64,000 nt of DNA. Origin: Cellulomonas sp. S1-8 (GTDB lineage: Bacteria; Actinomycetota; Actinomycetes; Actinomycetales; Cellulomonadaceae). The translations under genes and the position numbers were made by a program. This document shows, in pieces, positions 1,532-15,201 of this stretch (positions are counted from its first letter, which is position 1; each line of letters opens with the position of its first letter). The notes under the pieces are model-generated. The model ran no database searches and had not been told where the DNA came from. It worked only from the letters and a program-made list of their open reading frames with translations. Location of the stretch: positions 310,001 through 374,000 of the forward strand of contig NZ_CP110806.1 in NCBI RefSeq assembly GCF_026184235.1, in the 5' to 3' direction.

Positions 1532-2875
1532 TCAGGCGGTGCAGGTCGGCGACAGGCTCGTCGGCGGCGCGCCGCTCCCGATGAAGCCGAACGTGGTGGT
1601 CCCGCCGGCCGGCAGGTTGCCGTTCCAGGCGGCGTTGCGGACGACGGCGTTGTCACCCGTCGGTGCGTACACGCCGCTCCACAGCTGGTCGACGCGCGCG
1701 CTGCTCAGCGACCAGGCCACGCTCCAGCCGGTGGTCGGGCTGCCACCGGCACGCACCGTGACCTCACCCTGGTAGCCGCCGGGCCACGCGTTCACCGTCG
1801 TGTACGTCGCGGAGCAGGCGCCCGCCGGCGTCGGGGTGGTGGACGGGGTGGGAGTCGGCGTCGGCGACGGCGTACCGGTCGGGCCGGTCGGCGTGGGGGT
1901 CGGCGTCGGTGTGGGCGTGGGGGTGGGAGTCGGCGTGGGAGTCGGCGTCGGCGTCGGTGTGGGGGTCGGCGTCGGTGTGGGTGTCGGGTTCGTCGACGTC
2001 AGCGCGGAGAAGAACGACCAGATCTCCCCGGGCACGTGGGACTGCTGCTGGTTGCGGTCGCGGGCGTCCCACTGGTGGTCGCTGTCGTTGGCGATCCACA
2101 CGACCGGGAACCCTGCGCGGCAGGTGTAGGTGGTCTTGGTGTGGGTGCCGCTGCCCTGGGCGGGCTCGGGGGCGTTCTGGGCGGTGCAGCCGTTGTTGCG
2201 CAGTGCGCGGTCACGCAGTGCGCGTCCCTGGGAGATGTTCAGGACGGAGTCGGCGATGCCGTGGGACCCGAGGTAGGCGATGGGTGCGGTGCCCCCGGCG
2301 CAGCCGGAGAGCTGGGCGCCGTTCAGGACGGCCACGGCGCGGAACACGTCGGCCCGGGCGCAGGCCAGGGCGTTGCTCATGCCGCCGCCGTAGCTGAACC
2401 CGGTGGCGAAGCGCTGCGTGGTGTCGATGCACAGCGCGGCGTCCAGGGTGCGCAGCAGGTCGTCGATGAACGTCACGTCGCGCCCGTTGGTGTTCGGCCA
2501 GGCGTTGTCGATGCCCTGGGGTGCGACGAAGATCGTGCTGTTGTTCGCCAGCGGCTTCAGGCCGTAGAAGTTCTGGTTCACGACGTCCTGCGACGTGCCG
2601 TGCCACCAGTGCAGGCCCACGACGAGGCGGTACTGCTTGTTGGGGTCGTAGCCCGCGGGCACGTCGAGGCGGTACTGGCGGGACTGCCCGCCGCTCGTCA
2701 GGGTGTGGTTGCCGGTGGTGAGCCGGGGGGACGAGCCGCAGCCGGCGGTGGCCGCGGCGGGCACGGCACCGCCGGGCAGCGCGGACGCGGGTGCGGTGAT
2801 GGTGCCGAGCGCGAGCACCGCGACGGATGCTGCGAGCACCGCCCTCAGGTGTCGTGACGGGTTGCGGAGTCTCAC
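1532..2875 (-). CDS. Secreted CE1-type (acetyl xylan/feruloyl) esterase with CBM2a
   Basis: About 447 residues. A signal peptide (cleavage near SA-LPGG, residue 32) leads into an alpha/beta-hydrolase esterase of the PHB-depolymerase/CE1 type: nucleophile motif GFSYGGG (Ser161), HGIADSV (Asp209) and SDHQW (His267) form the probable triad. A long PT-repeat linker (nucleotides about 1840-1995) connects to a C-terminal CBM2 whose [17 protein letters not shown] and [11 protein letters not shown] motifs are of the cellulose-binding CBM2a kind. It should remove acetyl or feruloyl groups from xylan outside the cell. The GTG at 2875 is chosen because GGAGGAA lies five bases upstream. The core is almost identical to that of the esterase at 7299-8570, which carries a different CBM. 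Substrate is inferred from the neighbours. Confidence 0.85.
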
Positions 2876-2991
2876 GGTGGTTCCTCCCTGCCGGGGCGCC
2901 CCGGCAGCGGTGCCAGGGACGTGGTCCGCCGTGAGCGCGCGCAGCGGCACTCCCGGCTGGGGCGAATGTAGCGATACACCACCCCTGGTCA

Positions 2992-3639
2992 TCAGGTAGC
3001 GAAACGCTTCGCCTGGACCTCGTCCGTGGTGGGCTCGGCGCCCCGCGACCACACCAGGGCGTACCGCCACAGCGGCAGCCGGCGCCACCGGACGCCCGGC
3101 AGCACCTCGCGCGCGGCCGCACGCACCTCGGTGTACGTGTGGGGCCGCTGCCACGACGTCGGGGCGGTGTGCTCCCAGTAGTTCCGGGTGCGGCTCAGCA
3201 CCTGGTGCTGCACGACGCCCGCCACCTCCCAGGGGATGTCCCGCGGCCCGGTCGAGCGCGCCAGCCCGATGACGACGAGCGTGCCGCCGGGAGCGGTGAG
3301 GTCGGCCAGCCGGCGCAGGCCCTCGGCGGTGTCGGGCAGGTGGTGCAGCGTGGCGATCGACGCGACCACGTCGAACGACGCGGGCGCGAACGGCGCTGCC
3401 ATGACGTCACCGCGCACCCATGCGACGTGGGGGTCGTTCTCCTGGGCACGGGTCAGGACGTCCGCGTCGACGTCGATGCCGACGACGTGCGGGACGCGTC
3501 GGCGCAGGTCGGCGGCGAGAAGCCCGTCGCCCGTGCCGACGTCGAGCGCGGTGCGCGCGTGCGACGGGACCGCCGCGAGCACGAGCGGGTGGTAGTGCAG
3601 GTTGTGGTTCCACCGGGGAGCGGTGCCGGGGGCGCTCAT
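2992..3639 (-). CDS. Class I SAM-dependent methyltransferase
   Basis: A 215-residue soluble protein with the SAM-binding motif [12 protein letters not shown], acidic motif II VVGIDVD, and the post-I region [15 protein letters not shown] typical of the UbiE/COQ5-like Methyltransf_11/25 fold. The substrate cannot be read from the sequence. The ATG at 3639 overlaps the stop of the upstream acetyltransferase by four bases (ATGA), so the two are translated as an operon. Its last codons contain the AAACG operator thought to control the following esterase. Housekeeping or resistance function is unknown. Confidence 0.8.
2999..3012. promoter_or_regulatory. LacI-type operator candidate, GCGAAACGCTTCGC
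   Basis: Near-palindrome with arms GCGAA/TTCGC, about 125 bases upstream of the esterase start. It overlaps the last codons of the methyltransferase gene. The same core recurs before the GH5 glucanase and before the calcium-repeat protein. Confidence 0.55.
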
Positions 3640-4100
3640 CGGGCTGCGCCGACGGGCGGGCGGCCCGGTGCGTACGCCATGAACGCGGTCTTGGTCTGCG
3701 AGGTCAGACCGCACTCCCGGTAGAAGGCGTGCACGTCGGCGCCGGTGGCCGACGTCTGGAGCATCACCTTGTAGCAGCCGGCGTCCCACGCGAGCTGCAT
3801 CACCTGGGCCATCAGCCGGCGACCGACGCCGCGCCGCTGCACGGAGGCGTCGACGGCGACGTTCTCGACGACCGCCCAGGGCCGGCCTTCGCGCGTGAGG
3901 TTGGGCACGACGACGAGGCAGGCGGTCGCGACGACGGCACCGTCGTCCTCGAGGACCAGGATGTCCGTGCCGGGCGTGTCGATGGTGCGCTGCAGGATCC
4001 GGCGCCCCTCGTCCACCGGGACGGGGGGTTCGTCCGGGTGCAGGACGCCGTAGAGGCGCTGGACGTCGGGCAGGTCGTCGAGCTCAGCGGCACGCAGCAC
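3636..4100 (-). CDS. GNAT family N-acetyltransferase
   Basis: A 154-residue single-domain acetyltransferase. The acetyl-CoA pyrophosphate-binding motif A reads ENVAVDASVQRRGVGRRLM (RRGVGR), followed by the motif B segment AFYRECGL. Start is GTG at 4100. It is the first gene of a two-gene unit with the methyltransferase, coupled by an ATGA overlap. The acceptor substrate is not recognisable; small amines or antibiotics are possible for this family. Confidence 0.85.
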   Translation of the reverse strand: MLRAAELDDLPDVQRLYGVLHPDEPPVPVDEGRRILQRTIDTPGTDILVLEDDGAVVATACLVVVPNLTREGRPWAVVENVAVDASVQRRGVGRRLMAQVMQLAWDAGCYKVMLQTSATGADVHAFYRECGLTSQTKTAFMAYAPGRPPVGAAR

Positions 4101-4139
4101 CCCCAGAACCTACCGACCCCACCCGCGAGAAGCCCGCGC

Positions 4140-4193
4140 GAACCACGACTTGGGTGGCTCATAGGGGCTCTTGAGCCGCCCAAGTCGTGGTTC
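4140..4193 (-). terminator. Long-stem hairpin downstream of the PaiB-like gene
   Basis: A 21-bp stem with one mismatch (4140-4160 with 4173-4193) and a 12-base loop, with no T-tract. It sits about 30 bases after the stop of the FMN-binding protein and 40 bases before the GNAT start. Confidence 0.75.
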
Positions 4194-4223
4194 GACGGGG
4201 GCTCAGGCGGGGTAGGGGACCGG

Positions 4224-4853
4224 TCAGGCGCGGGGGCCGGTGCGGTGCATCGCGTGGGCGACCGCCGCGGCCTGGGGGTCGCCCTCGGCCGTCAGGCCCG
4301 CGACCACGCCCGCGTGGTCCGGTGCCGAGCGGTTCTGGCTGAGCTTGGCCTTGGCCTCGACGCGCTCGACGAGCACCTCGATGCCGACGACGGCCCGCAG
4401 CTGCTTCTCGACGAACCCCGCGGGTGCGTCGGTGACGTGCCAGCGGTCGGCGCGGCCGGACTCGTGCTGGTCCGTGAGCAGGGTGACCGCCTCGTGCAAC
4501 CACGCGGCGTCGGTGCGCACGCGCGCGCGGCCCGTGAGGTGCACGGCGGAGTAGTTCCACGTCGGCACCATGCGGCCGTGCTCGGCCTTGCTCGGGTACC
4601 AGGACGCCGACACGTACGCCTGCGGCCCGGTCACGACGGCCAGCACCGGCGCGTCGTCGCCGATGGTCCGCCACTGCGGGTTGGCGCGGGCCATGTGCAG
4701 GACGAGGCGGTCCCCGTCCCACACGACGGGGAGCAGGGTCGACGTGGGGTAGCCGTCGGTGCCGACGGTCACCAGCTCGGCTGAGCCGGCGGCCGCGACG
4801 AGCGCGCGGATCTCGGAGTCGTCGTCGAGGGCGTTGAAGACGGGGACGTACAC
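4224..4853 (-). CDS. FMN-binding PaiB-like protein
   Basis: A 209-residue protein starting MYVPVFNALDD, the hallmark N-terminus of the PaiB/FMN-binding negative transcriptional regulator family. The split-barrel flavin-binding core continues with LPVVWDGDRLVLHMARANPQW and WYPSKAEHGRMVPTWNYSAVH. Bacillus PaiB affects sporulation and protease genes; in actinobacteria the role is generally unproven and an FMN-dependent enzymatic role is also possible. Starts with GTG at 4853 and stands alone between two hairpins. Confidence 0.85.
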   Translation of the reverse strand: MYVPVFNALDDDSEIRALVAAAGSAELVTVGTDGYPTSTLLPVVWDGDRLVLHMARANPQWRTIGDDAPVLAVVTGPQAYVSASWYPSKAEHGRMVPTWNYSAVHLTGRARVRTDAAWLHEAVTLLTDQHESGRADRWHVTDAPAGFVEKQLRAVVGIEVLVERVEAKAKLSQNRSAPDHAGVVAGLTAEGDPQAAAVAHAMHRTGPRA

Positions 4854-4903
4854 CCGCCGAGCGTAGCGGGGGCTGCGTCGACCGGGCCGGGCGTCGTGAA
4901 CGG

Positions 4904-4945
4904 CTCGGGGCCGTCCGCCGGAGTGCTCCGGCGGACGGCCCCGAG
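4904..4945 (-). terminator. Perfect 20-bp hairpin after the GH11-CE4 xylanase
   Basis: Bases 4904-4923 pair without error with 4926-4945. It lies 15 bases beyond the stop of the bifunctional xylanase gene, with no T-tract. Confidence 0.9.
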
Positions 4946-4959
4946 GGTCCTGCGGTGGG

Positions 4960-7005
4960 TCAGCGTGCGGTGCAGCTGGCCGACGGGACGGCGCTGTTGC
5001 CGCCGGAGTAGAACGTCACGCCGAAGCTGTTGTTGCCGGCCGACGTCAGGGTGTTGCCGGAGCGGGTGGCGTTCCAGGAGCTCTGGATCGACTGGCCCGA
5101 GCCCGGGTTGACGGTGACCGACCAGCTCGAGGCGCCGGACACGGTGTAGGTGACGTTGAAGCGGTCGCCCCACGACTCGGCCTTGGTGCCGGTGACGGTG
5201 CACGCGCCGGTGCTGCCGCCGCCGGTGTTGCCACCGCCGGTGCTGCCCCCGCCGGTGTTGCCGCCGCCGGTGCTGCTGCCGGTCGGGGCGACCGCGCGGC
5301 CGGTGGACGGCGAGATGTGGCCCGTGCACAGGTTGCGCGACTGCAGGTCCTGCAGGATGCCGGGCAGGGCCTGGATCGTGTTGGTCGGCCAGTCGTGCAT
5401 GAGGATGACCTGGCCGTTCGTCAGACGCTGCGCGGCCGAGCGGATCTGCTGCGCCGAGACGTTGTTGTAGTCCTGCGAGTCGACGTCCCACGTGACCACG
5501 CGCAGGCCGAGACCCGACGCGACCGAGTTCACGGTGTTGTTGACCTCGCCGTACGGCGGACGGAAGATCTGGGGCGTCACGCCGGCAGTGTTCTGGATCG
5601 CCGTCTGGGTGCGCGAGAGCTGCGACTGCACGTCGCTCTGGCTCTGCTGGATCAGGTGCGGGTGGTCCCAGCTGTGGTTGCCGATCTGCAGGCCGGCGTT
5701 CTTGTAGGCCTGCATGAGCGAGGCGTTGTTCTGCGCGTTGGAGCCGGTCGGGAAGACGGTGGCCGTCGCGTTGCCGGCCCGCAGGGCGCTGATGAGCTGG
5801 TTCGTCGTGGCGGCCGTGGGGCCGTCGTCGAACGTCAGGGCCACGTAGCCGCCGGTGCAGCTCTGCGTCGCGCCGCCGCCGGTGTTGCCGCCGCCCGTGT
5901 TGCCGCCGCCGGTGTTCCCGCCGCCCGTGTTGCCGCCGCCCGTGTTGCCTCCGCCGGTGCTGCCGCCCGCGGCCGTGCACGAGGCGGACGGCGTGGCGCT
6001 GTTGCCGCCGGAGTAGTACGTCACGCCGAAGGTCTGGTTGCCGGCCGACGTGAAGGTGTTGCCCGAGCGGGTCGCGTTCCAGGAGTTCTGGATCGACTGG
6101 CCCGATCCCGGGTTGACCGTCACCGACCAGCTGGTGGCGCCGGAGACGGTGTAGCTGACGTTGAAGCGGTCACCCCACGACTCTCCCGCGACGGGTGTCG
6201 CGGTGACGGTGCAGCCGTTCGAGGTCCCGCCACCGGTGTTCCCGCCGCCGGTGTTCCCGCCACCCGTGTTCCCGCCACCGGTGTTCCCGCCGCCGCCGCC
6301 CGCACCCTCGGACACCGTGATGTTCGAGTTGCCGGAGGACTGGTAGCCCTCGGTCGCCATGATCATGTAGTTGTGGTTGCCCAGCTGCATGCCCTTGGAC
6401 GCCCAGGCGGAGAAGTGGTTGCCGGCGGTGATGGTGCCGCCGACGCGCTTGGACTGGCGGACCGACCAGAACTGCTTGAACGTCGAGCTGTTGCCCTCGA
6501 TGGAGGGGGCGTTGACGCGGGTGGTCTCGTAGATGTCGTAGGTGCCGCCGTCGGTGGTGACGGTGCCCTTGTGGGTGCCGGTGGGCCGGTAGGTGCCCCA
6601 GGAGTCGACGATGTAGTACTCGATCAGCGGGCCGTTGGTCCACCCGTACAGGGTGAGGTAGGCGTTGCCCGAGGGGTTGAACTGGCCGGAGTAGTTCACG
6701 ACCTTGCCGCTGTCGCCCTTGGACCAGCCCTTGCCGATGACGAAGTTGCCGGTGTTCGACCAGTTCGTCGTGTAGGCGCCGCCGCCGTTCATGTTGGAGG
6801 AGACGGTGCCCTGGCTGTCGGTCCAGAACGAGTACCACAGGCCGTCGGTGCCGGTCTGGTTGGTCGTGATCGTCGCCGCGACGGCGGGCGCGGCGGCTGC
6901 GACGCCGCCCACGGCCAACGTGGCAGCGGCGACCGTGCCCAGGAGGGCGCGCAGGGTGCGCTGCCCCCGCCTGGCCGGTCGGGCTGTGTCGAGGATGTCG
7001 AGCAT
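4960..7005 (-). CDS. Bifunctional secreted xylanase/acetyl xylan esterase: GH11-CBM2b-CE4-CBM2b
   Basis: 681 residues. Signal peptide to about Ala43; GH11 endo-beta-1,4-xylanase (45-232) with nucleophile Glu129 in [12 protein letters not shown] and acid/base Glu219 in [13 protein letters not shown]2 (264-343); NTGGG linker; CE4 NodB-type deacetylase (383-560) with metal-binding TFDDGP (Asp394), HSWDH (His444, His448), RPPYG and LMHDW; second CBM2 (601-681). Both CBM2s have the [14 protein letters not shown] pattern of xylan-binding CBM2b. This is the domain order of Cellulomonas fimi Xyn11A. ATG at 7005 is preceded by AAAGGAG. It cuts and deacetylates xylan in one molecule. Its catalytic half is nearly identical to the xylanase at 11297-12307. 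Confidence 0.95.
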
Positions 7006-7170
7006 CGCGGAGCTCCTTTGTGCGGCAGATCTGTGGACCGGAGGGGAGCGGGCGGGGCGGGGGCGCTCACCGGCTCGTGCCCGGTGCCGCGGACGCAGGT
7101 GCGCGTCGTGCGGTCCGGGCGTTGCCAGTCTGGCCGGGGCGAATCCGCAGGTGAACGGCCCGAGCGACGT

Positions 7171-7185
7171 GCAAATCGTTTACGC
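7171..7185. promoter_or_regulatory. Operator candidate GCAAATCGTTTACGC
   Basis: Read on the minus strand it contains TAAACGATTTG, a member of the AAACG dyad set found before the secreted enzymes. It is about 170 bases upstream of the bifunctional xylanase start. Confidence 0.45.
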
Positions 7186-7227
7186 AGCGTCGGTGCACCC
7201 GCGGGGGTGGACGTCGGGAGGACGCGG

Positions 7228-7274
7228 CGACGCCCGCCGCCCGTGCCGGGGGTCCGGCCGGGAGGCGGGCGTCG
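7228..7274 (-). terminator. Hairpin after the second esterase
   Basis: An 11-bp perfect stem (7228-7238 with 7264-7274) with a 25-base loop, 25 bases past the stop of the esterase gene at 7299. Confidence 0.7.
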
Positions 7275-7298
7275 TGGACGCATCGCTCGTCGTGGTCG

Positions 7299-8570
7299 TC
7301 AGGAGCAGACGCCCCAGGGGATCCAGTTGATGTTCTGCGAGCCCTTGTAGTACGTCACGCCGAAGCTGTTCGTGCCGCTCTGGCGGAACGTGTTGCCGGT
7401 ACGGGTGGCGCCCCAGGAGTTCTGGATCGACTGTCCCGAGTTCGGGTAGACCGTCACGGTCCAGCTCGACCGGCCGGAGACCGTGTAGGTGACGTTGAAG
7501 CGGTCGCCCCACTCCTGGCCGCGGGCCCAGCTGACGGTGCAACCGCCCGGGTTGGGAGTGGGTGTCGCGGACGGCGTGGGCGTCGGCGTGGCTGTCACGG
7601 ACGGCGTCGGGGTGGGTGTGACCGACGGGGTGGGCGTCGGCGTGGGAGTCACGGACGGCGTGGGCGTCGGGGTGGGCGTCGTCGACGTCAGCGCGGAGAA
7701 GAACGACCAGATCTCCCCGGGCACGTGGGACTGCTGCTGGTTGCGGTCGCGGGCGTCCCACTGGTGGTCGCTGTCGTTGGCGATCCACACGACCGGGAAC
7801 CCTGCGCGGCAGGAGTAGGTGGTCTTGGTGTGGGTGCCGCTGCCCTGTCCGGGCTCGGGGGCGTTCTGGGCGGTGCAGCCGTTGTTGCGCAGTGCGCGGT
7901 CGCGCAGGGCGCGTCCCTGGGAGATGTTCAGGACGGAGTCGGCGATGCCGTGGGACCCGAGGTAGGCGATGGGGGCGGTGCCCCCGGCGCAGCCGGAGAG
8001 CTGGGCGCCGTTCAGGACGGCCACGGCGCGGAACACGTCGGCCCGCGCGCAGGCCAGGGCGTTGCTCATGCCGCCGCCGTAGCTGAACCCGGTGGCGAAG
8101 CGCTGCGTGGTGTCGATGCACAGCGCGGCGTCCAGGGTGCGCAGCAGGTCGTCGATGAACGTCACGTCGCGCCCGTTGGTGTTCGGCCACCCGTTGTCGA
8201 TGCCCTGCGGTGCGACGAAGATCGTGCTGTTGTTCGCCAGCGGCTTCAGGCCGTAGAAGTTCTGGTTGACCACGTCCTGGGACGTGCCGTTCAGCCAGTG
8301 CAGGCCGACCACGAGGCGGTACTGCCGGTTCGGGTCGTAGCCCGCGGGCACGTCGAGCCGGTACTGGCGGGACTGCCCGCCGCTGGTGAGGGTGTGGTTG
8401 CCGGTGCTCAGAGCCGCGGCCCTGCCGCACCCGGCAGTCGGGGCGGCCGCGATCGGGCCGCCGGGCAGCGCGGTCGCGGGCAGGGCGGCGGCGAGGCCGC
8501 TCACGGCGAGCGCAGCGGTCGCAACCAGCGCTCCCCAGCGGCGTCGGGTGGTGGGTCTGAGATGAGGCAC
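7299..8570 (-). CDS. Secreted CE1-type (acetyl xylan/feruloyl) esterase with CBM2b
   Basis: About 423 residues. Signal peptide (cleavage near TA-LPGG), then the same esterase core as the gene at 1532-2875: GFSYGGG (Ser163), HGIADSV (Asp211), SDHQW (His269). The linker mixes PT with SVTPTP repeats. The C-terminal module ([33 protein letters not shown]) is of the CBM2b type, unlike the CBM2a of its paralogue, so the two enzymes probably present one activity on xylan and on cellulose surfaces. Start GTG at 8570 has AAGGAG eight to ten bases upstream. It has its own operator candidate and terminator. Confidence 0.87.
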   Translation of the reverse strand: MPHLRPTTRRRWGALVATAALAVSGLAAALPATALPGGPIAAAPTAGCGRAAALSTGNHTLTSGGQSRQYRLDVPAGYDPNRQYRLVVGLHWLNGTSQDVVNQNFYGLKPLANNSTIFVAPQGIDNGWPNTNGRDVTFIDDLLRTLDAALCIDTTQRFATGFSYGGGMSNALACARADVFRAVAVLNGAQLSGCAGGTAPIAYLGSHGIADSVLNISQGRALRDRALRNNGCTAQNAPEPGQGSGTHTKTTYSCRAGFPVVWIANDSDHQWDARDRNQQQSHVPGEIWSFFSALTSTTPTPTPTPSVTPTPTPTPSVTPTPTPSVTATPTPTPSATPTPNPGGCTVSWARGQEWGDRFNVTYTVSGRSSWTVTVYPNSGQSIQNSWGATRTGNTFRQSGTNSFGVTYYKGSQNINWIPWGVCS

Positions 8571-8618
8571 GATCTCTCCTTGCTGTCGGGCGGACCGGCG
8601 TTCTCGCCGGTCGAGCCG

Positions 8619-8630
8619 GTGAACGTTCAC
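8619..8630. promoter_or_regulatory. Perfect palindrome GTGAACGTTCAC
   Basis: A 12-bp perfect dyad 49 bases upstream of the second esterase, at a position suited to a repressor operator. It shares the central AACGTT with the other dyads of the secreted-enzyme genes. Confidence 0.55.
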
Positions 8631-8678
8631 AAGCGGGTACGGGTCGTCCTTGCCATCAGTGCGGGACGGGGGAACACG

Positions 8679-8720
8679 CGAGGCGTGAGGGGATGTGCGA
8701 GCGCATCCCCTCACGCCTCG
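8679..8720 (-). terminator. 17-bp perfect hairpin after GH11 xylanase
   Basis: Bases 8679-8695 pair with 8704-8720 around an 8-base loop, 14 bases past the stop of the xylanase at 8734. No T-tract. Confidence 0.9.
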
Positions 8721-8733
8721 GCGCGCAGGCCCG

Positions 8734-9768
8734 TCAGGAGCAGATGCCCCAGGGGATGTAGTTGATGTTCTGCGAGCCCTTGTAGTACGTCACACCGAAG
8801 CTGTTCGAGCCGCTCTGGCGGAACGTGTTGCCGCTGCGGGTGGCGCCCCACGAGTTCTGGACGGACTGGCCCGAGTTCGGGTAGACCGTCACGGACCAGT
8901 TCGACCGGCCGGACACGGTGTACGTGACGTTGAAGCGGTCGCTCCACTCCTCGCCCCGGGTCCAGCTGACCGTGCAGCCGTTGGTGGTGTTGCTGCCGCT
9001 GTTGTTGCCGCCGGTCGAGCCGCCGCCGGTGTTGCCGCCACCACCGTTGTTGCCGCCGCCGCCGGTCGAGGGCGAGCCCGTGCCGACGGTGATGTTCGAG
9101 TTGCCGGAGGACTGGTACCCCTCGGTCGCCATGATCTGGTAGTTCTGCGAGCCGAGCTGCATGCCCGCCTGCGACCAGGCGTTGAAGTGGTTCTGGGCGG
9201 TGATGGTGCCGCCGACCCGCTTGGACTGGCGCACGGACCAGTACTGGTTGAAGGTCGCGTTGCCCTGGATGGACGGCGCGTTGTAGCGCGTCGTCTGGTA
9301 GATGTCGTAGGTGCCGCCGTCGGTCGTCACGGTGCCCTTGTGGGTGCCGGTGGGCCGGTAGGTGCCCCAGGAGTCGACGATGTAGTACTCGACGAGCGGG
9401 CCGGTGGTCCACCCGTACAGCGTCAGGTAGGCGTTGCCGGACGGGTTGAACGACCCCGAGTAGGACACCGCGCGGCCGGTGCCGGTCTGCCAGCCCTTGC
9501 CGATGACGAAGTTGCCGGTGTTCGACCACTGCGTCGTGTAGTTGCCGCCGTCGTTCATGCCGGACGAGACCGTGCCAGGGCTGTCGGTCCAGAAGGAGAA
9601 CCAGTAGCCGCCGCTGTTGCCGGTCTGGTTGCTGTTGACGGTCACCGCTGCGGCGGGGGTCGCGAGGGCGACGGTGCCGGCGATCAGGGCGCCGGCGGCG
9701 ACGACGCCGAGAGCGGCGCGGAGCCGGCGGCGGGTCGTGGAACGGGGCAGAGCGAAACTGTCGGACAT
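8734..9768 (-). CDS. Secreted GH11 endo-xylanase with CBM2b
   Basis: 344 residues: signal peptide to about residue 41 ([10 protein letters not shown]), GH11 domain (42-230) with nucleophile Glu127 in [12 protein letters not shown] and acid/base Glu216 in [10 protein letters not shown], a Gly/Asn/Ser linker, and a C-terminal CBM2b ([17 protein letters not shown]). It is the most divergent of the three GH11 catalytic domains here, while its CBM closely resembles that of the esterase downstream. ATG at 9768 follows AAGGGAG. It releases xylo-oligosaccharides outside the cell. Confidence 0.95.
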
Positions 9769-9940
9769 CGGAGCACTCCCTTGTGCACGCGTCGAGCGGA
9801 CAGGTCCTCGATCCGCGGTGCTCGGGGCGGAGTCGCCGGTCGAGGCACCGGACCGTGACGGGTTGCGTGAGATGAGGTCCGGCCGGTGTCCAGACAGTGT
9901 CGCCGCGCGCGCGGCAAAGATGAACAGGAGGCAGGGCTGC

Positions 9941-9952
9941 TTTATCGTTTAA
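9941..9952. promoter_or_regulatory. Operator candidate TTTATCGTTTAA
   Basis: AT-rich island in a GC-rich region, 173 bases upstream of the GH11 start. The minus strand reads TTAAACGATAAA, matching the AAACG dyad set. Confidence 0.4.
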
Positions 9953-10113
9953 CCACTGGACCGGGTCGCGCCGGTCCGACGTGCGCGCGAGCTCCGCACC
10001 GGGTGGCGGGCCGTCGAAGCCGGGCATCCGGCGGGCCGAAAGAACGAGGGCCAGGCGTCGCAACATTCGAGACGCCCGGACGTGAAAGCCGACTCGGTGC
10101 GCGCTCCGCGCCG

Positions 10114-10153
10114 GACGGGCGGGGCCGCGGACCGTGCCGCGACCCCGCCCGTC
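10114..10153 (-). terminator. Hairpin after CE4 deacetylase
   Basis: An 11-bp perfect stem (10114-10124 with 10143-10153) just beyond the stop of the deacetylase gene; a short GCGG/CCGC stem can extend it inside the loop. Confidence 0.7.
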
Positions 10154-10159
10154 GGGCTG

Positions 10160-11179
10160 CTACGCGCAGACGCCGGTGGGCGTCCAGTTCACGTTGTTGC
10201 TGCCCTTGTAGTACGTGACGCCGAAGCTGTTGGAGCCGTTCGGGGTGAAGGTGTTGCCGTTGCGGTTGGCGCCCCAGGCGCTCTGGATCGACTGCCCGTT
10301 GCTCGGGTAGACGGTGACGGACCAGTTCGACTTGCCGGTCACGGTGTAGGTGACGTTGAAGCGGTCGCCCCACTCCTGGCCCTTGGTCGCGGTCGCGGTG
10401 CAGGAGCCGGTGCTCGGGGTGGTGGGGTTCGCGGTGGGGTTCGTGGTCGGGTTGGTCGTGGGGTTCGTGGTGGGCGTGCCGGAGGCGGCGACCGCGCGGC
10501 CGGTGGACGCGGAGATGTGGCCCGTGCACAGGTTGCGCGACTGCAGGTCCTGCAGGATGCCGGGCAGCGCCTGGATCGTGTTCGTCGGCCAGTCGTGCAT
10601 GAGGACGACCTGGCCGTTGGACGCGCGCGACACCGCCGAGCGGATCTGCTGCGAGGACACGTTGTTGTAGTCCTGGGTGTCGATGTCCCAGGTGACCACG
10701 CGCAGCCCGAGGCCGGAGGCCGCCGAGTTCACGGTGCTGTTCGTCTCGCCGTACGGCGGGCGGAAGATCTTCGGGGTCACGCCGGCCGTGTTCTGGATCG
10801 CGGTCTGCGTGCGCGAGAGCTGCGACTGGACGTTGGCGGCGCTCTGCTGGATCAGGTGCGGGTGGTCCCAGCTGTGGTTGCCGATCTGCAGGCCGGCGTT
10901 CTTGTAGGCCTGCATGAGCGAGGCGTTGTTCTGGGCGTTCTGGCCCGTCGGGAAGACGGTGGCCGTCGCGTTGCCGGCCCGCAGCGCGTTGATGAGCTGG
11001 TTCGTCGTGGCGGCCGTGGGGCCGTCGTCGAACGTCAGGGCGACGTAGCCGGACGAGCAGTCCGCGGCGCTGGCCGACGGCGCCAGGGCGAGCCCGCCAG
11101 CGAGGACCGCGCTGGTGGCGGTGAGGCCCGCGAGCATGCGCAGCGAGCGCTGCCGGCGGGGGTGAGGGGTGAGGGTCAC
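10160..11179 (-). CDS. Secreted CE4 polysaccharide deacetylase (acetyl xylan esterase) with CBM2b
   Basis: 339 residues. Signal peptide to about Ala38, NodB/CE4 domain (42-225) with all motifs: TFDDGP (Asp51, Asp52), NHSWDH (His102, His106), RPPYG, WDIDTQDY and LMHDW (His195). A TTNP-repeat linker leads to a CBM2b ([28 protein letters not shown]). The CE4 part is close to that inside the bifunctional xylanase, and the CBM is close to that of the xylanase just upstream. In this setting the likely substrate is acetylated xylan rather than chitin or peptidoglycan. The GTG start has GAGGA about 11 bases upstream. Confidence 0.92.
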   Translation of the reverse strand: MTLTPHPRRQRSLRMLAGLTATSAVLAGGLALAPSASAADCSSGYVALTFDDGPTAATTNQLINALRAGNATATVFPTGQNAQNNASLMQAYKNAGLQIGNHSWDHPHLIQQSAANVQSQLSRTQTAIQNTAGVTPKIFRPPYGETNSTVNSAASGLGLRVVTWDIDTQDYNNVSSQQIRSAVSRASNGQVVLMHDWPTNTIQALPGILQDLQSRNLCTGHISASTGRAVAASGTPTTNPTTNPTTNPTANPTTPSTGSCTATATKGQEWGDRFNVTYTVTGKSNWSVTVYPSNGQSIQSAWGANRNGNTFTPNGSNSFGVTYYKGSNNVNWTPTGVCA

Positions 11180-11250
11180 GGGGATGCACTTCCTCGGGGT
11201 GAGACGGGGAGAAGTCCGTCGGCGGCGTTGTCGACGGGCCGGGACGTGCC

Positions 11251-11288
11251 CAGGGGGTGCCGGGCCTCGAAGGACCCGGCACCCCCTG
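11251..11288 (-). terminator. 14-bp perfect hairpin after GH11 xylanase
   Basis: Bases 11251-11264 pair with 11275-11288 around a 10-base loop, nine bases past the stop of the xylanase at 11297. Confidence 0.88.
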
Positions 11289-11296
11289 TCAGGCCG

Positions 11297-12307
11297 CTAG
11301 GAGCAGACGCCGGTGGGCGTCCAGTTCACGTTGTTGCTGCCCTTGTAGTACGTCACGCCGAAGCTGTTGGAGCCGTTCGGGGTGAAGGTGTTGCCGTTGC
11401 GGTTGGCGCCCCAGGCGCTCTGGACCGACTGGCCGTTGCTCGGGTAGACCGTCACGGACCAGTTCGACTTGCCGGACACGGTGTAGGTGACGTTGAAGCG
11501 GTCGCCCCACTCCTGGCCCTTGGTCGCCGTCGCGGTGCACGACGAGCCGCCGGTGTTGCCGCCGCCGGTGTTGCCACCGCCCGTGTTGCCGCCACCGGTG
11601 TTGCCGCCGCCGGAGGAGGTGCCCGTGCTGACGTTGATGTTCGAGTTGCCGGAGGACTGGTAGCCCTCGGTCGCCATGATCATGTAGTTGTGGTTGCCCA
11701 GCTGCATGCCCTTGGACGCCCAGGCGGAGAAGTGGTTGCCGGCGGTGATGGTGCCGCCGACGCGCTTGGACTGGCGGACCGACCAGAACTGCTTGAACGT
11801 CGAGCTGTTGCCCTCGATGGAGGGGGCGTTGACGCGGGTGGTCTCGTAGATGTCGTAGGTGCCGCCGTCGGTGGTGACGGTGCCCTTGTGGGTGCCGGTG
11901 GGCCGGTAGGTGCCCCAGGAGTCGACGATGTAGTACTCGATCAGCGGGCCGTTGGTCCACCCGTACAGGGTGAGGTAGGCGTTGCCCGAGGGGTTGAACG
12001 ACCCGGAGTAGTTCACGACCTTGCCGCTGTCGCCCTTGGACCAGCCCTTGCCGATGACGAAGTTGCCGGTGTTCGACCAGTTCGTCGTGTAGGCGCCGCC
12101 GCCGTTCATGTTGGAGGAGACGGTGCCCTGGCTGTCGGTCCAGAACGAGTACCACAGACCGTCGGTGCCGGTCTGGTTGGTCGTGATCGTGGCCGCCGCG
12201 GCGGGGGTCGCGAGGGCGACGGTGCCTGCGACCAGGGCGCCGGCGGCGAGCGCGGCGAGGGACGCGCGGAGCGTCCGGCGACGGGTGGAGACGAAAGTTT
12301 CGGTCAT
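11297..12307 (-). CDS. Secreted GH11 endo-xylanase with CBM2b
   Basis: 336 residues: signal peptide ([11 protein letters not shown]), GH11 domain (39-225) with Glu124 ([12 protein letters not shown]) and Glu214 ([10 protein letters not shown]), NTGGG linker and CBM2b. The mature catalytic domain differs from that of the 681-residue bifunctional enzyme by about one residue (Ser instead of Gln in SGSFNP), and the DNA is nearly identical over about 556 bases. The CBM instead matches that of the neighbouring CE4 gene. ATG at 12307 is preceded by AAGGGAG at ten bases. A CGAAAGTTTCG palindrome overlaps codons 2-5. Confidence 0.95.
12292..12302. promoter_or_regulatory. Palindrome CGAAAGTTTCG inside the start of the xylanase gene
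   Basis: Perfect 11-bp dyad covering the codons right after the ATG. It resembles the CGAAA/TTTCG boxes described for xylanase genes in Streptomyces. A second version stands at 12591-12604. Confidence 0.5.
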
Positions 12308-13446: not shown

Positions 13447-15201
13447 TCAGCCGGCCGCGCCCGTCGTCCCGGCCGGTGCTGCCGTCCCGGCCGGTGCTGC
13501 CGCGCCCGTCACCGCGGCGCCGTCGCGCTGGACCGTGTACGTGACCGTGTCGCCGCTCCAGAAGTGGAACGTCAGTGTCACCGGGACGCCGTCGGTGGTC
13601 TCGGCGAAGAACGCCGGGCGCAGGACGATCCGGCCGGCCTCGGTGTCGGGGGCGAACGTCACGTCGAACTCCTTGTACGACGTCCAGGAGTGCGGGCCGG
13701 CGTTCGAGCCGTCGGCGTAGCGGGCCTCCATGGTCGCGAGGCGGTCGCCGTTGAAGGCCGTCGGGACGGCGAAGTCCTCGGTGGTGCCGGTGGCGGACGC
13801 GAGCACCGGGGTGTCGGCTGCGACGACGTCGACGCGCCACGGGACGCCGCGGTCGAACCGCACGTGCAGCTCCGCGTGCTCGCCGTACGCGCCGTCGCCG
13901 ATCAGGCGGGTGAGCAGTGCGGCCGGGAGGGTGAGCGTGTCACCGGTGAGGGTGTAGTCCGTGCCCGACCTGAGCTTCTTCTTCCCCAGGTACAGGCCCG
14001 TGAATCGGCGCCCGTTCGGCTGCAGCGTCACGACCTGGTCGCTCACGGCACCCGGGCGGACGAACACCTGGTCGGTCGACGCGACGCCCGAGCGGCCCTT
14101 CCAGCTGGACGCGACCTGCGCGAACAGCTCCGGGTCCTTCCAGCGGTACGTCGTGCGGTCGAGGTGCTGGCCGTTGTCCCACCACATCGTGGTGACGGCG
14201 GCGGTGCGCGCCTGGTGGCCGAGCTCCTCGAAGAACTTCAGCTTCTCGCCCTGCTCGATGGTCCCGGTGTGCCGGTCGAAGCCCAGCAGCCCGTACTCGC
14301 CGAGGATCACGGGGACGCCCTGGTCGACGAACGTGGTGCGGACGCGGTCGAACGTGCCGGTCATGTCGGCCATCGCCGCCGCGTCGAACCGGGTGCCGCC
14401 CGCGACGTTCACGCTGAACGGCCAGTAGCCGTAGAAGTGGAACGTCGCCGCGAGGTTCGGGTCGTCGAGCGTCGCGAACGTCGCGGCCAGCGCGTCGAGG
14501 CGCGGCTGGTCGGCGTTGGTGTGCAGCGTCGGCAGCACCAGGACGCGGTCCGCGTTGTGTCCGCCGGTGCCGCGCACGACGTCGTGGAACGCGATGTTCA
14601 GCTCGTCGAGCAGCGCGTACGCCTGTGCGTCGTCGACGCCGGCGAACTGCGGCTCGTTGATGCTCTCGAGCAGCAGCGTGCGGGGGTGGTCGCGGAACCG
14701 GTCGGCGATCTGCTGCCACGTCGCGGTGAGCTGCGTGAGCACCTCGTCGTGCCGGGTGCCCATCTCGTGCGTCCACATCCACGAGTCGTGGTGGGCGTCG
14801 AGCAGGACGTACAGACCTTCGGCGAGGGCGAGGTCGACGACCTCCTCGACACGGTCGAGGACGACGGGGTCGATCGTGTGGTCGGGTGCCGGGCCCTGGT
14901 GCTGCCCCCAGGTGACGGGGATGCGCACCGAGTCGAAGCCCTGCTTCTCGAGCCGGTCGAACAGCTCGCGCGTGACGCGCGGGTTGCCCCATGCGGTCTC
15001 GTCGGCGCCGACCGCGTCGAGCGTGTTGCCGAGGTTCCAGCCGGGCTGCATGTCGGCGACGACGGCGGCGGCGTCGGCCGGGGGTCGGCCGTGGCCGGGC
15101 CCGTGGCCCGGTCCGGCGGCGGCGGGCGCGACGGTCGCGGCGGTCACCGCCAGCGCGGTGGCGAGGGTCGCGAGGGTCGTCGTACGTCGTCTCACGGGCA
15201 T
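13447..15201 (-). CDS. Secreted GH5_4-type endoglucanase/xyloglucanase with X2 and CBM46 modules
   Basis: 584 residues. Signal peptide to about Ala29, a short GHGPGHG segment, then a GH5 catalytic domain (50-365) starting [12 protein letters not shown], with acid/base Glu183 in INEP and nucleophile Glu302 in ILGEYG. The ETAWGNP signature suggests subfamily 4. Residues 375-460 match the immunoglobulin-like X2 module ([27 protein letters not shown]). Residues 462-562 match CBM46 ([24 protein letters not shown]), an order known from Bacillus Cel5B that acts on xyloglucan and beta-glucan. The tail is Ala/Gly/Thr-rich. ATG at 15201 or GTG at 15195, the latter better spaced from GAAGGG. An operator candidate lies 62 bases upstream. 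Confidence 0.9.

Follow-up and report, generated by a model that had tools for sequence, protein, structure and literature searches.

Six secreted genes in the window analysed here (64,000 nt of Cellulomonas sp. S1-8, positions 310,001 to 374,000 of contig NZ_CP110806.1), all on the minus strand, combine GH11, CE4 and CE1 catalytic modules with carbohydrate-binding modules (CBMs) of the CBM2 type. We refer to them as E1, X1D, E2, X2, D2 and X3 (Table 1). The genes are sequence mosaics with definable tract edges and conflicting module topologies, and the pattern recurs in other genomes. In our reading, to which we assign a probability of about 0.8, the locus arose as genes were duplicated and inserted on a conserved backbone, with recurrent gene conversion overwriting the catalytic modules. 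An earlier note, made from this sequence alone, had described six secreted xylanolytic genes with three unrelated ones between them, and gene content and strand are as it stated. It had also seen here a live record of module exchange; exchange is supported, although the recent events look like the replacement of like with like (i.e. gene conversion) and not like free shuffling.

The GH11 modules of X1D and X3 are 98.7% identical at the DNA level, compared with 84.8–85.3% between either of them and X2, and the second-nearest match to the X1D module is 93.0% identical. In a best-segment analysis of 14 gene pairs, X1D and X3 differ at 4 of 556 aligned nt within a tract whose flanks differ at 52 of 126 and 70 of 287 positions (24–41%). 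In codon windows, X1D codons 61–220 show 3 differences in 480 nt, while before codon 41 there are 42 differing positions in 35 aligned codons and the CBM is heavily different. The edges are sharp: the tract is limited to GH11, starting and stopping within a few codons of the module borders. Synonymous divergence (dS), whose measurement module by module had been proposed in the earlier note, is 0.028 for GH11 and 0.29–0.42 for CBM2b between these two genes.

The X1D/X3 and E1/E2 pairs could be young whole-gene tandem duplicates, altered afterwards by fusion at their other ends, a view in keeping with near-identical catalytic modules inside one genome and with the 80% likeness of the X2 and X3 signal peptides. 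We think it improbable because of the affinities of the gene ends. In related genomes (given here by G numbers, G000 being S1-8 itself), the orthologues of X1D are termed XD. The X1D signal peptide is 83–86% identical, and the 3′ flank 82–88% identical, to the XD genes of the nearest relatives G044, G016, G003 and G019, and the first CBM of X1D (CBM1) is nearest to CBM1 of the same four; signal peptide, CBMs and 3′ flank all group with XD of other species. The best X3 match in these four genomes (87–88%) lies at a separate, distal site, and the X3 CBM groups with the type found in the distal genes and in G080. In each gene the shared GH11 is younger than either end, and the fusion model would therefore need replacement at both ends. 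X3 itself is, on its sequence, a mosaic of an X2-type signal peptide (nearest to X2, with the X2-type gene X of G046 at 79%), an X1D-type GH11 (nearest to X1D) and a D2/distal-type CBM (nearest to D2).

All of the module likenesses listed in the earlier note are real at the DNA level. Besides the GH11 pair, these are the CE4 modules of X1D and D2 (89.6%), the CBMs of X3 and D2 (94.0% over the whole module, 95.9% over a 246-bp BLAST piece) and the CBMs of E2 and X2 (89.6% over the whole module, 91.1% over 247 bp). Missing from that list was a tract common to the CE1 modules of E1 and E2, which are 94.0% identical as a whole; E1 codons 222–381 show 7 differences in 480 nt, and codons 122–161 show 25 in 120 nt.

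Trees of GH11 (46 sequences), CE1 (15), CE4 (27) and CBM2b (78), of the kind that the earlier note had suggested, all conflict with gene position. Its claim that catalytic and binding modules have different histories is upheld by approximately unbiased (AU) tests, which reject positional descent for GH11, CE1 and CE4; agreement of the module trees with orthologues was looked for and not found for these three. Rejected for GH11 are monophyly of eight XD genes (p 0.00096), the grouping of X1D with XD of G044, G016, G003 and G019 (p 0.00096), the grouping of X3 with the distal genes (p 0.01) and monophyly of the X2-position genes (p 2e-5). All four CE1 alternatives that place E1 and E2 with their counterparts are rejected (p 5.7e-4 or less), as are, for CE4, X1D with its XD orthologues (p 1.3e-4) and D2 with stand-alone CE4 genes (p 4.9e-9). 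The X1D/X3 GH11 pair groups with XD of G044 and G016 at 100% support, which favours XD as the donor and suggests transfer from XD to X3. The CBM2b tests, run on 46 of the 78 sequences, reject two of four alternatives (D2 with stand-alone CE4 genes, p 1.4e-9; X3 with X1D CBM1, p 5e-5). Two vertical alternatives are not rejected, namely X3 grouped with the distal genes to the exclusion of D2 (p 0.23) and E2 grouped with the esterase CBM of G052 (p 0.45), so the D2/X3 and E2/X2 CBM links need not be recent.

Similar tracts are present in other genomes, with other partners. XD and X of G046 differ at 3 of 563 nt between flanks that differ at 51/123 and 65/301 positions, with edges at the GH11 borders and a partner gene different from that in S1-8; dS for this pair is 0.031 in GH11 and 0.43–0.45 in CBM2b. 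XD and the distal gene of G044 (3 differences in 432 nt) and XD and X of G079 (6 in 415 nt) share tracts that start inside the GH11 module, and best segments elsewhere are more diverged (G016 XD/distal, 16/432; G019 XD/X, 31/425). The earlier note had placed the exchange within one locus. This is true of the X1D/X3 tract, but the G044 partner of XD lies about 2 Mb away on the chromosome and other species use other partners. High-identity tracts inside more divergent homologous flanks, as expected of conversion, were found in 5 of 21 within-genome pairs, in five of nine genomes, at a global p <0.01 in a Sawyer-type permutation test (215 polymorphic third positions, 24 genes, 9 genomes, 2000 permutations). 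The global p is 0.0005 each for G044 XD/distal, G046 XD/X and X1D/X3 of S1-8, whose longest run of agreeing polymorphic third positions was reached by none of the 2000 permutations; it is 0.002 for G079 XD/X and 0.0095 for G003 distal/X, where the run is short.

Modules might instead have reached the genome through horizontal transfer from other species and homologous recombination, and not through exchange inside it. Some GH11 modules are indeed close between species (X2 of S1-8 with X of G003, 92.4%, 100% support), and CE4-CBM2b adjoins GH11-CBM2b at a different kind of locus in G072, G039 and G077 (the CE4-CBM2b gene of G077 being split over two frames). We give this origin as little credence as tandem duplication: among the sequences compared, the best match of the X1D/X3 GH11, the CE1 and the CE4 modules is in the same genome, and XD-X2 GH11 pairs are more alike within genomes than between them. 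In a label-shuffle test of paralogue pairs, GH11 identity between XD and X2 averages 89.2% within and 85.9% between genomes (p ~5e-5, 9 genomes), reaching 99.3% in G046 and 93.7% in G079, with no within-genome excess between XD CBM1 and the X2 CBM (71.8 vs 71.4%, p 0.13). GH11 of XD and X3/distal genes gives 91.5 vs 87.3% (p 0.016, 5 genomes; G003 and G019 not raised), and the two CBM2b copies within XD give 88.9% within vs 84.6% between genomes (p ~5e-5).

Several results weigh against recurrent conversion. The Shimodaira–Hasegawa test, which is more conservative, does not reject a grouping of the X3 GH11 with the distal genes (p 0.19), and 16 of the 21 within-genome pairs have no significant tract by global p, G016 XD/distal (0.99) among them. 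In S1-8 itself GH11 identity between XD and X2 is not raised (84.8%); X2 and X3/distal GH11 show no within-genome excess (p 0.075 at all sites, 0.32 at third positions), and XD CBM2 and the X2 CBM show a small one (72.9 vs 72.1%, p 0.0013). The label-shuffle controls take no account of shared ancestry among the genomes, and CBM2b is less conserved than GH11. A single gene served as species reference, namely a part of rpoB available for 21 of 24 genomes (no match in G016, G077 and G050); its tree places S1-8 with G052, G044, G019 and G003, with 41% support near G052.

An assembler could also have merged or copied near-identical repeats. Elsewhere in this assembly, outside the window, a head-to-tail repeat of ~89 kb carries rpoB twice (G000:C1:3194609-3283630 and 3283629-3372662; 99.8–99.9% identical in the longer stretches sampled); it is either a recent large tandem duplication or itself an artefact. 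In the G052 assembly, breaks flank the place where the XD-X3 block should lie, one contig ending shortly after the FMN gene and another starting shortly before GH5, as expected if an assembler dropped near-identical repeats; because of these breaks, the lack of GH11 in G052 (CBM match only) is not informative. An artefact is very unlikely nonetheless, given that the two copies in S1-8 are non-identical with open frames and distinct flanks, and that G046 and G044, each assembled separately into a single contig, show the same pattern. Least credible of all is that purifying selection and codon bias alone hold the GH11 and CE1 copies alike: GH11 is conserved, as the between-genome average of XD and X2 attests, but the tract edges are sharp and the GH11 dS to XD of G044 and G016 and to four distal genes is 0.16–0.26, ~6–9 times that of X1D/X3.

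In the mechanism we propose, duplicated and inserted genes would have enlarged a conserved backbone into this array of secreted xylan-degrading enzymes, whose catalytic modules would then have been overwritten intermittently by homologous recombination between paralogues. Such conversion would need similar DNA, as may be offered by the GH11, CE1 and CE4 copies, mostly ~80–90% alike across genes; the signal peptides and CBMs of differing gene types are mostly less alike, and the tracts probably stop near module edges because the divergence beyond them is too great for recombination. The edges could also be set there by selection for intact modules, and the two causes are not separable here. The outcome would be near-identical catalytic modules joined to different binding modules, with CBM2a on E1 and CBM2b on E2, and with one CBM on X3 and two CBMs plus CE4 on X1D. 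We infer conversion rather than repeated crossover, presumably dependent on RecA and perhaps of some benefit. Unlike modules (an X-type CBM with CE1 or CE4) appear to have been joined before the recent like-for-like replacement.

A wider proposition, to which we give even odds, is that the catalytic module and not the gene is the evolutionary unit in Cellulomonas xylan loci: a GH11 pool would be homogenised within genomes by module-edged conversion, independently in several species and with different partners, including one ~2 Mb away, and each gene would retain a history of its own in its signal peptide and binding modules. If true, improvements in catalysis would be shared among the genes, and targeting would diversify gene by gene.

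The backbone is visible in eight relatives (G046, G044, G003, G016, G019, G080, G079 and G067), which have CrcB, E1, XD and an X2-type gene, together with at least some of the three unrelated genes. Relative to it, S1-8 has E2, D2, X3 and a GH5 cellulase gene as extras; the last has no match in the fetched loci of the eight relatives, and the gene that follows it here (15347) lies within ~1.6 kb of the X2 GH11 module in G003, G016 and G019. Counting S1-8, GH11 is present in 28 of 60 genomes of the genus, an X3-like match in 39 of 81 genomes and a four-module GH11-CBM2b-CE4-CBM2b open reading frame (ORF) in 18 of the 28 genomes from which modules were extracted. The distal site adjoins ppc in G044, and the ppc region of S1-8 (C1 ~2694832-2694858), compared with the distal loci of G044 and G003 (two of the four), has no xylanase gene. 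Simple relocation of X3 from the distal site into the locus was considered and is not claimed: its signal peptide is only 69% identical to that of the G044 distal gene, and its promoter has no match to distal genes among the best six listed. The likeness of the E2 3′ flank to X2-position 3′ flanks possibly reflects the X1D promoter only and was taken as evidence of position alone.

Table 1. Coordinates of the array and its neighbours within the window
Feature	Position (strand)	Description
E1	1532..2878 (-)	Secreted CE1 esterase with CBM2a-type module; start codon inferred, ORF open to 3154
CE1 tract, E1 half	2012..2491 (-)	Common with E2; from codon windows
Methyltransferase	2992..3789 (-)	Unrelated interrupter; same place in some relatives only
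GNAT acetyltransferase	3636..4100 (-)	Unrelated interrupter
FMN-binding (PNPOx-like) protein	4224..4853 (-)	Unrelated interrupter; kept in 8/8 backbone relatives
X1D	4960..7005 (-)	GH11-CBM2b-CE4-CBM2b; bifunctional xylanase/deacetylase by family, C. fimi xylanase D type
GH11 tract, X1D side	6319..6876 (-)	Putative conversion tract with X3
E2	7299..8570 (-)	Secreted CE1 esterase with CBM2b; adjoins X1D upstream, the X2 slot of relatives
CE1 tract, E2 half	7701..8180 (-)	Common with E1; from codon windows
X2	8734..9768 (-)	GH11-CBM2b xylanase; backbone gene
D2	10160..11179 (-)	CE4-CBM2b deacetylase (acetyl-xylan esterase-like)
D2 CBM2b	10160..10405 (-)	Piece matching X3 CBM2b
X3	11297..12307 (-)	GH11-CBM2b xylanase; mosaic gene
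GH11 tract, X3 side	11633..12190 (-)	Putative conversion tract with X1D
GH5 cellulase	13447..15201 (-)	With CBM_X2 and CBM46; adjoins X3 upstream

The Gly-rich linkers at the module junctions of X1D and X3 are encoded by 15-bp tandem repeats (5872-5967, 6225-6295 and 11546-11613), a DNA-level homology that could aid recombination. Among the relatives, G052 has two adjoining CE1 genes, one of them with CBM2b. G067 carries X2 and a tandem pair of XD genes; the frame of one XD extends over 1529 aa, and its terminal CBM2b is 94% identical to a CBM2b elsewhere on the chromosome (~2,789 kb). The gene in the X2 slot of G080 carries an X3-type CBM2b (93.6% to X3) and not the X2 type. G060, which was left out of the permutation test, has two neighbouring GH11 genes 99.8% alike over the module, and a nearby CE4 gene with two CBM2b copies shares a CBM at 94.8%. 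None of 387 plasmid records matching part of the X1D protein did so over 80% of it, and none of 4227 RNA families matched in the window at the gathering score.

Pfam Glyco_hydro_11 matches X1D, X2 and X3 over its full length (248.6–256.1 bits, cut-off 27), and all three contain EYYIVDSWG and ATEGYQSSG, which we take to be the GH11 motifs bearing the two catalytic Glu residues. D2 and X1D match Polysacc_deac_1 (118 bits, cut-off 23.1), and CE4 motifs 1–3 (TFDDGP, HSWDHP and RPPYG), described in part in PMC5855634, are intact in both. The closest solved chain to D2 is the acetyl-xylan esterase 2cc0 (E 2e-63); from this nearest relative and the accompanying CBM2b, the CE4 substrate of D2 and X1D is probably acetyl-xylan and not chitin or peptidoglycan. 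The CE1 modules of E1 and E2 have no Pfam match over the cut-off. We label them CE1 because E2 matches a feruloyl esterase structure (PDB 8jh8, E 8.6e-83) and E1 is 94% identical to E2, an assignment made through the PDB match and not through the CAZy CE1 family. Both contain GxSxG, which we read as the CE1 catalytic motif, and they fit alpha/beta-hydrolases akin to feruloyl or acetyl-xylan esterases. Polyhydroxybutyrate depolymerase was rejected as an identity for E1 and E2 (NF050058, 93.7 and 91.1 bits, cut-off 150; TIGR01840, 35.9 and 37.9 bits, cut-off 107.85).

The E1 CBM reaches the Pfam CBM_2 cut-off (E 3.4e-19) and differs in type from the CBMs of the other five genes; we take it to be of the cellulose type (CBM2a). 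Pfam CBM_2 gave no listing for the CBM2b copies at E 0.001. Those of X3, E2 and D2 are closest to the solved xylanase D CBMs 1heh and 1xbd (X3 against 1heh, E 1e-19), from what we take to be the Cellulomonas fimi protein, and all six CBM2b copies in the array contain W-x-D-R-FNV, the Arg of which is presumably the residue for xylan-type specificity. On family membership, the array is predicted to cut the xylan backbone and to remove acetyl and possibly feruloyl groups, with differing targeting.

Modular plant-cell-wall enzymes are usually put down to loosely described domain shuffling, and the steps here can be ordered and delimited: binding-module capture appears older and catalytic-module overwriting recent, with edges at module borders and repetition in sister species. 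The genes offer a natural series for asking whether selection acts on the catalytic cores of such enzymes or on their targeting combinations, and they carry the caution that catalytic-domain gene trees of modular carbohydrate-active enzymes (CAZymes) can mislead on gene identity.

C. fimi xylanase D (Xyn11A) has the architecture GH11-CBM2b-NodB/CE4-CBM2b. X1D has the identical module order but belongs to an array that also includes stand-alone GH11, CE4 and CE1 genes with which it shares modules. The glucan degradation locus of Caldicellulosiruptor holds other enzyme families and belongs to another phylum. Like this array it is a modular CAZyme locus with repeated regions, for which expansion by gene recombination after duplication is proposed in PMC7142884. 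In the present case, by comparison, module-limited tracts were measured and compared across species. CFXyl3 of C. flavigena, an active xylanase with the GH11-CBM2 architecture of X2 and X3, is the only GH11 reported in that genome according to PMC5209306 and would, unlike the genes here, have no exchange partner. We found no report of gene conversion among Cellulomonas xylanases in the open PMC literature (subscription papers not covered), where bacterial xylanases combined with gene conversion likewise gave no paper titled on bacterial xylanases. Gene conversion in the MgPa adhesion operon of Mycoplasma genitalium diversifies a surface protein, whereas conversion here would homogenise catalytic modules. 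Exchange in that operon takes place between related sequences of one genome, as described in PMC2169797. The enzyme families, the xylanase D architecture and recombination after duplication, as proposed at another cellulase locus, were thus already known; measured, module-bounded and recurrent exchange across species appears to be new.

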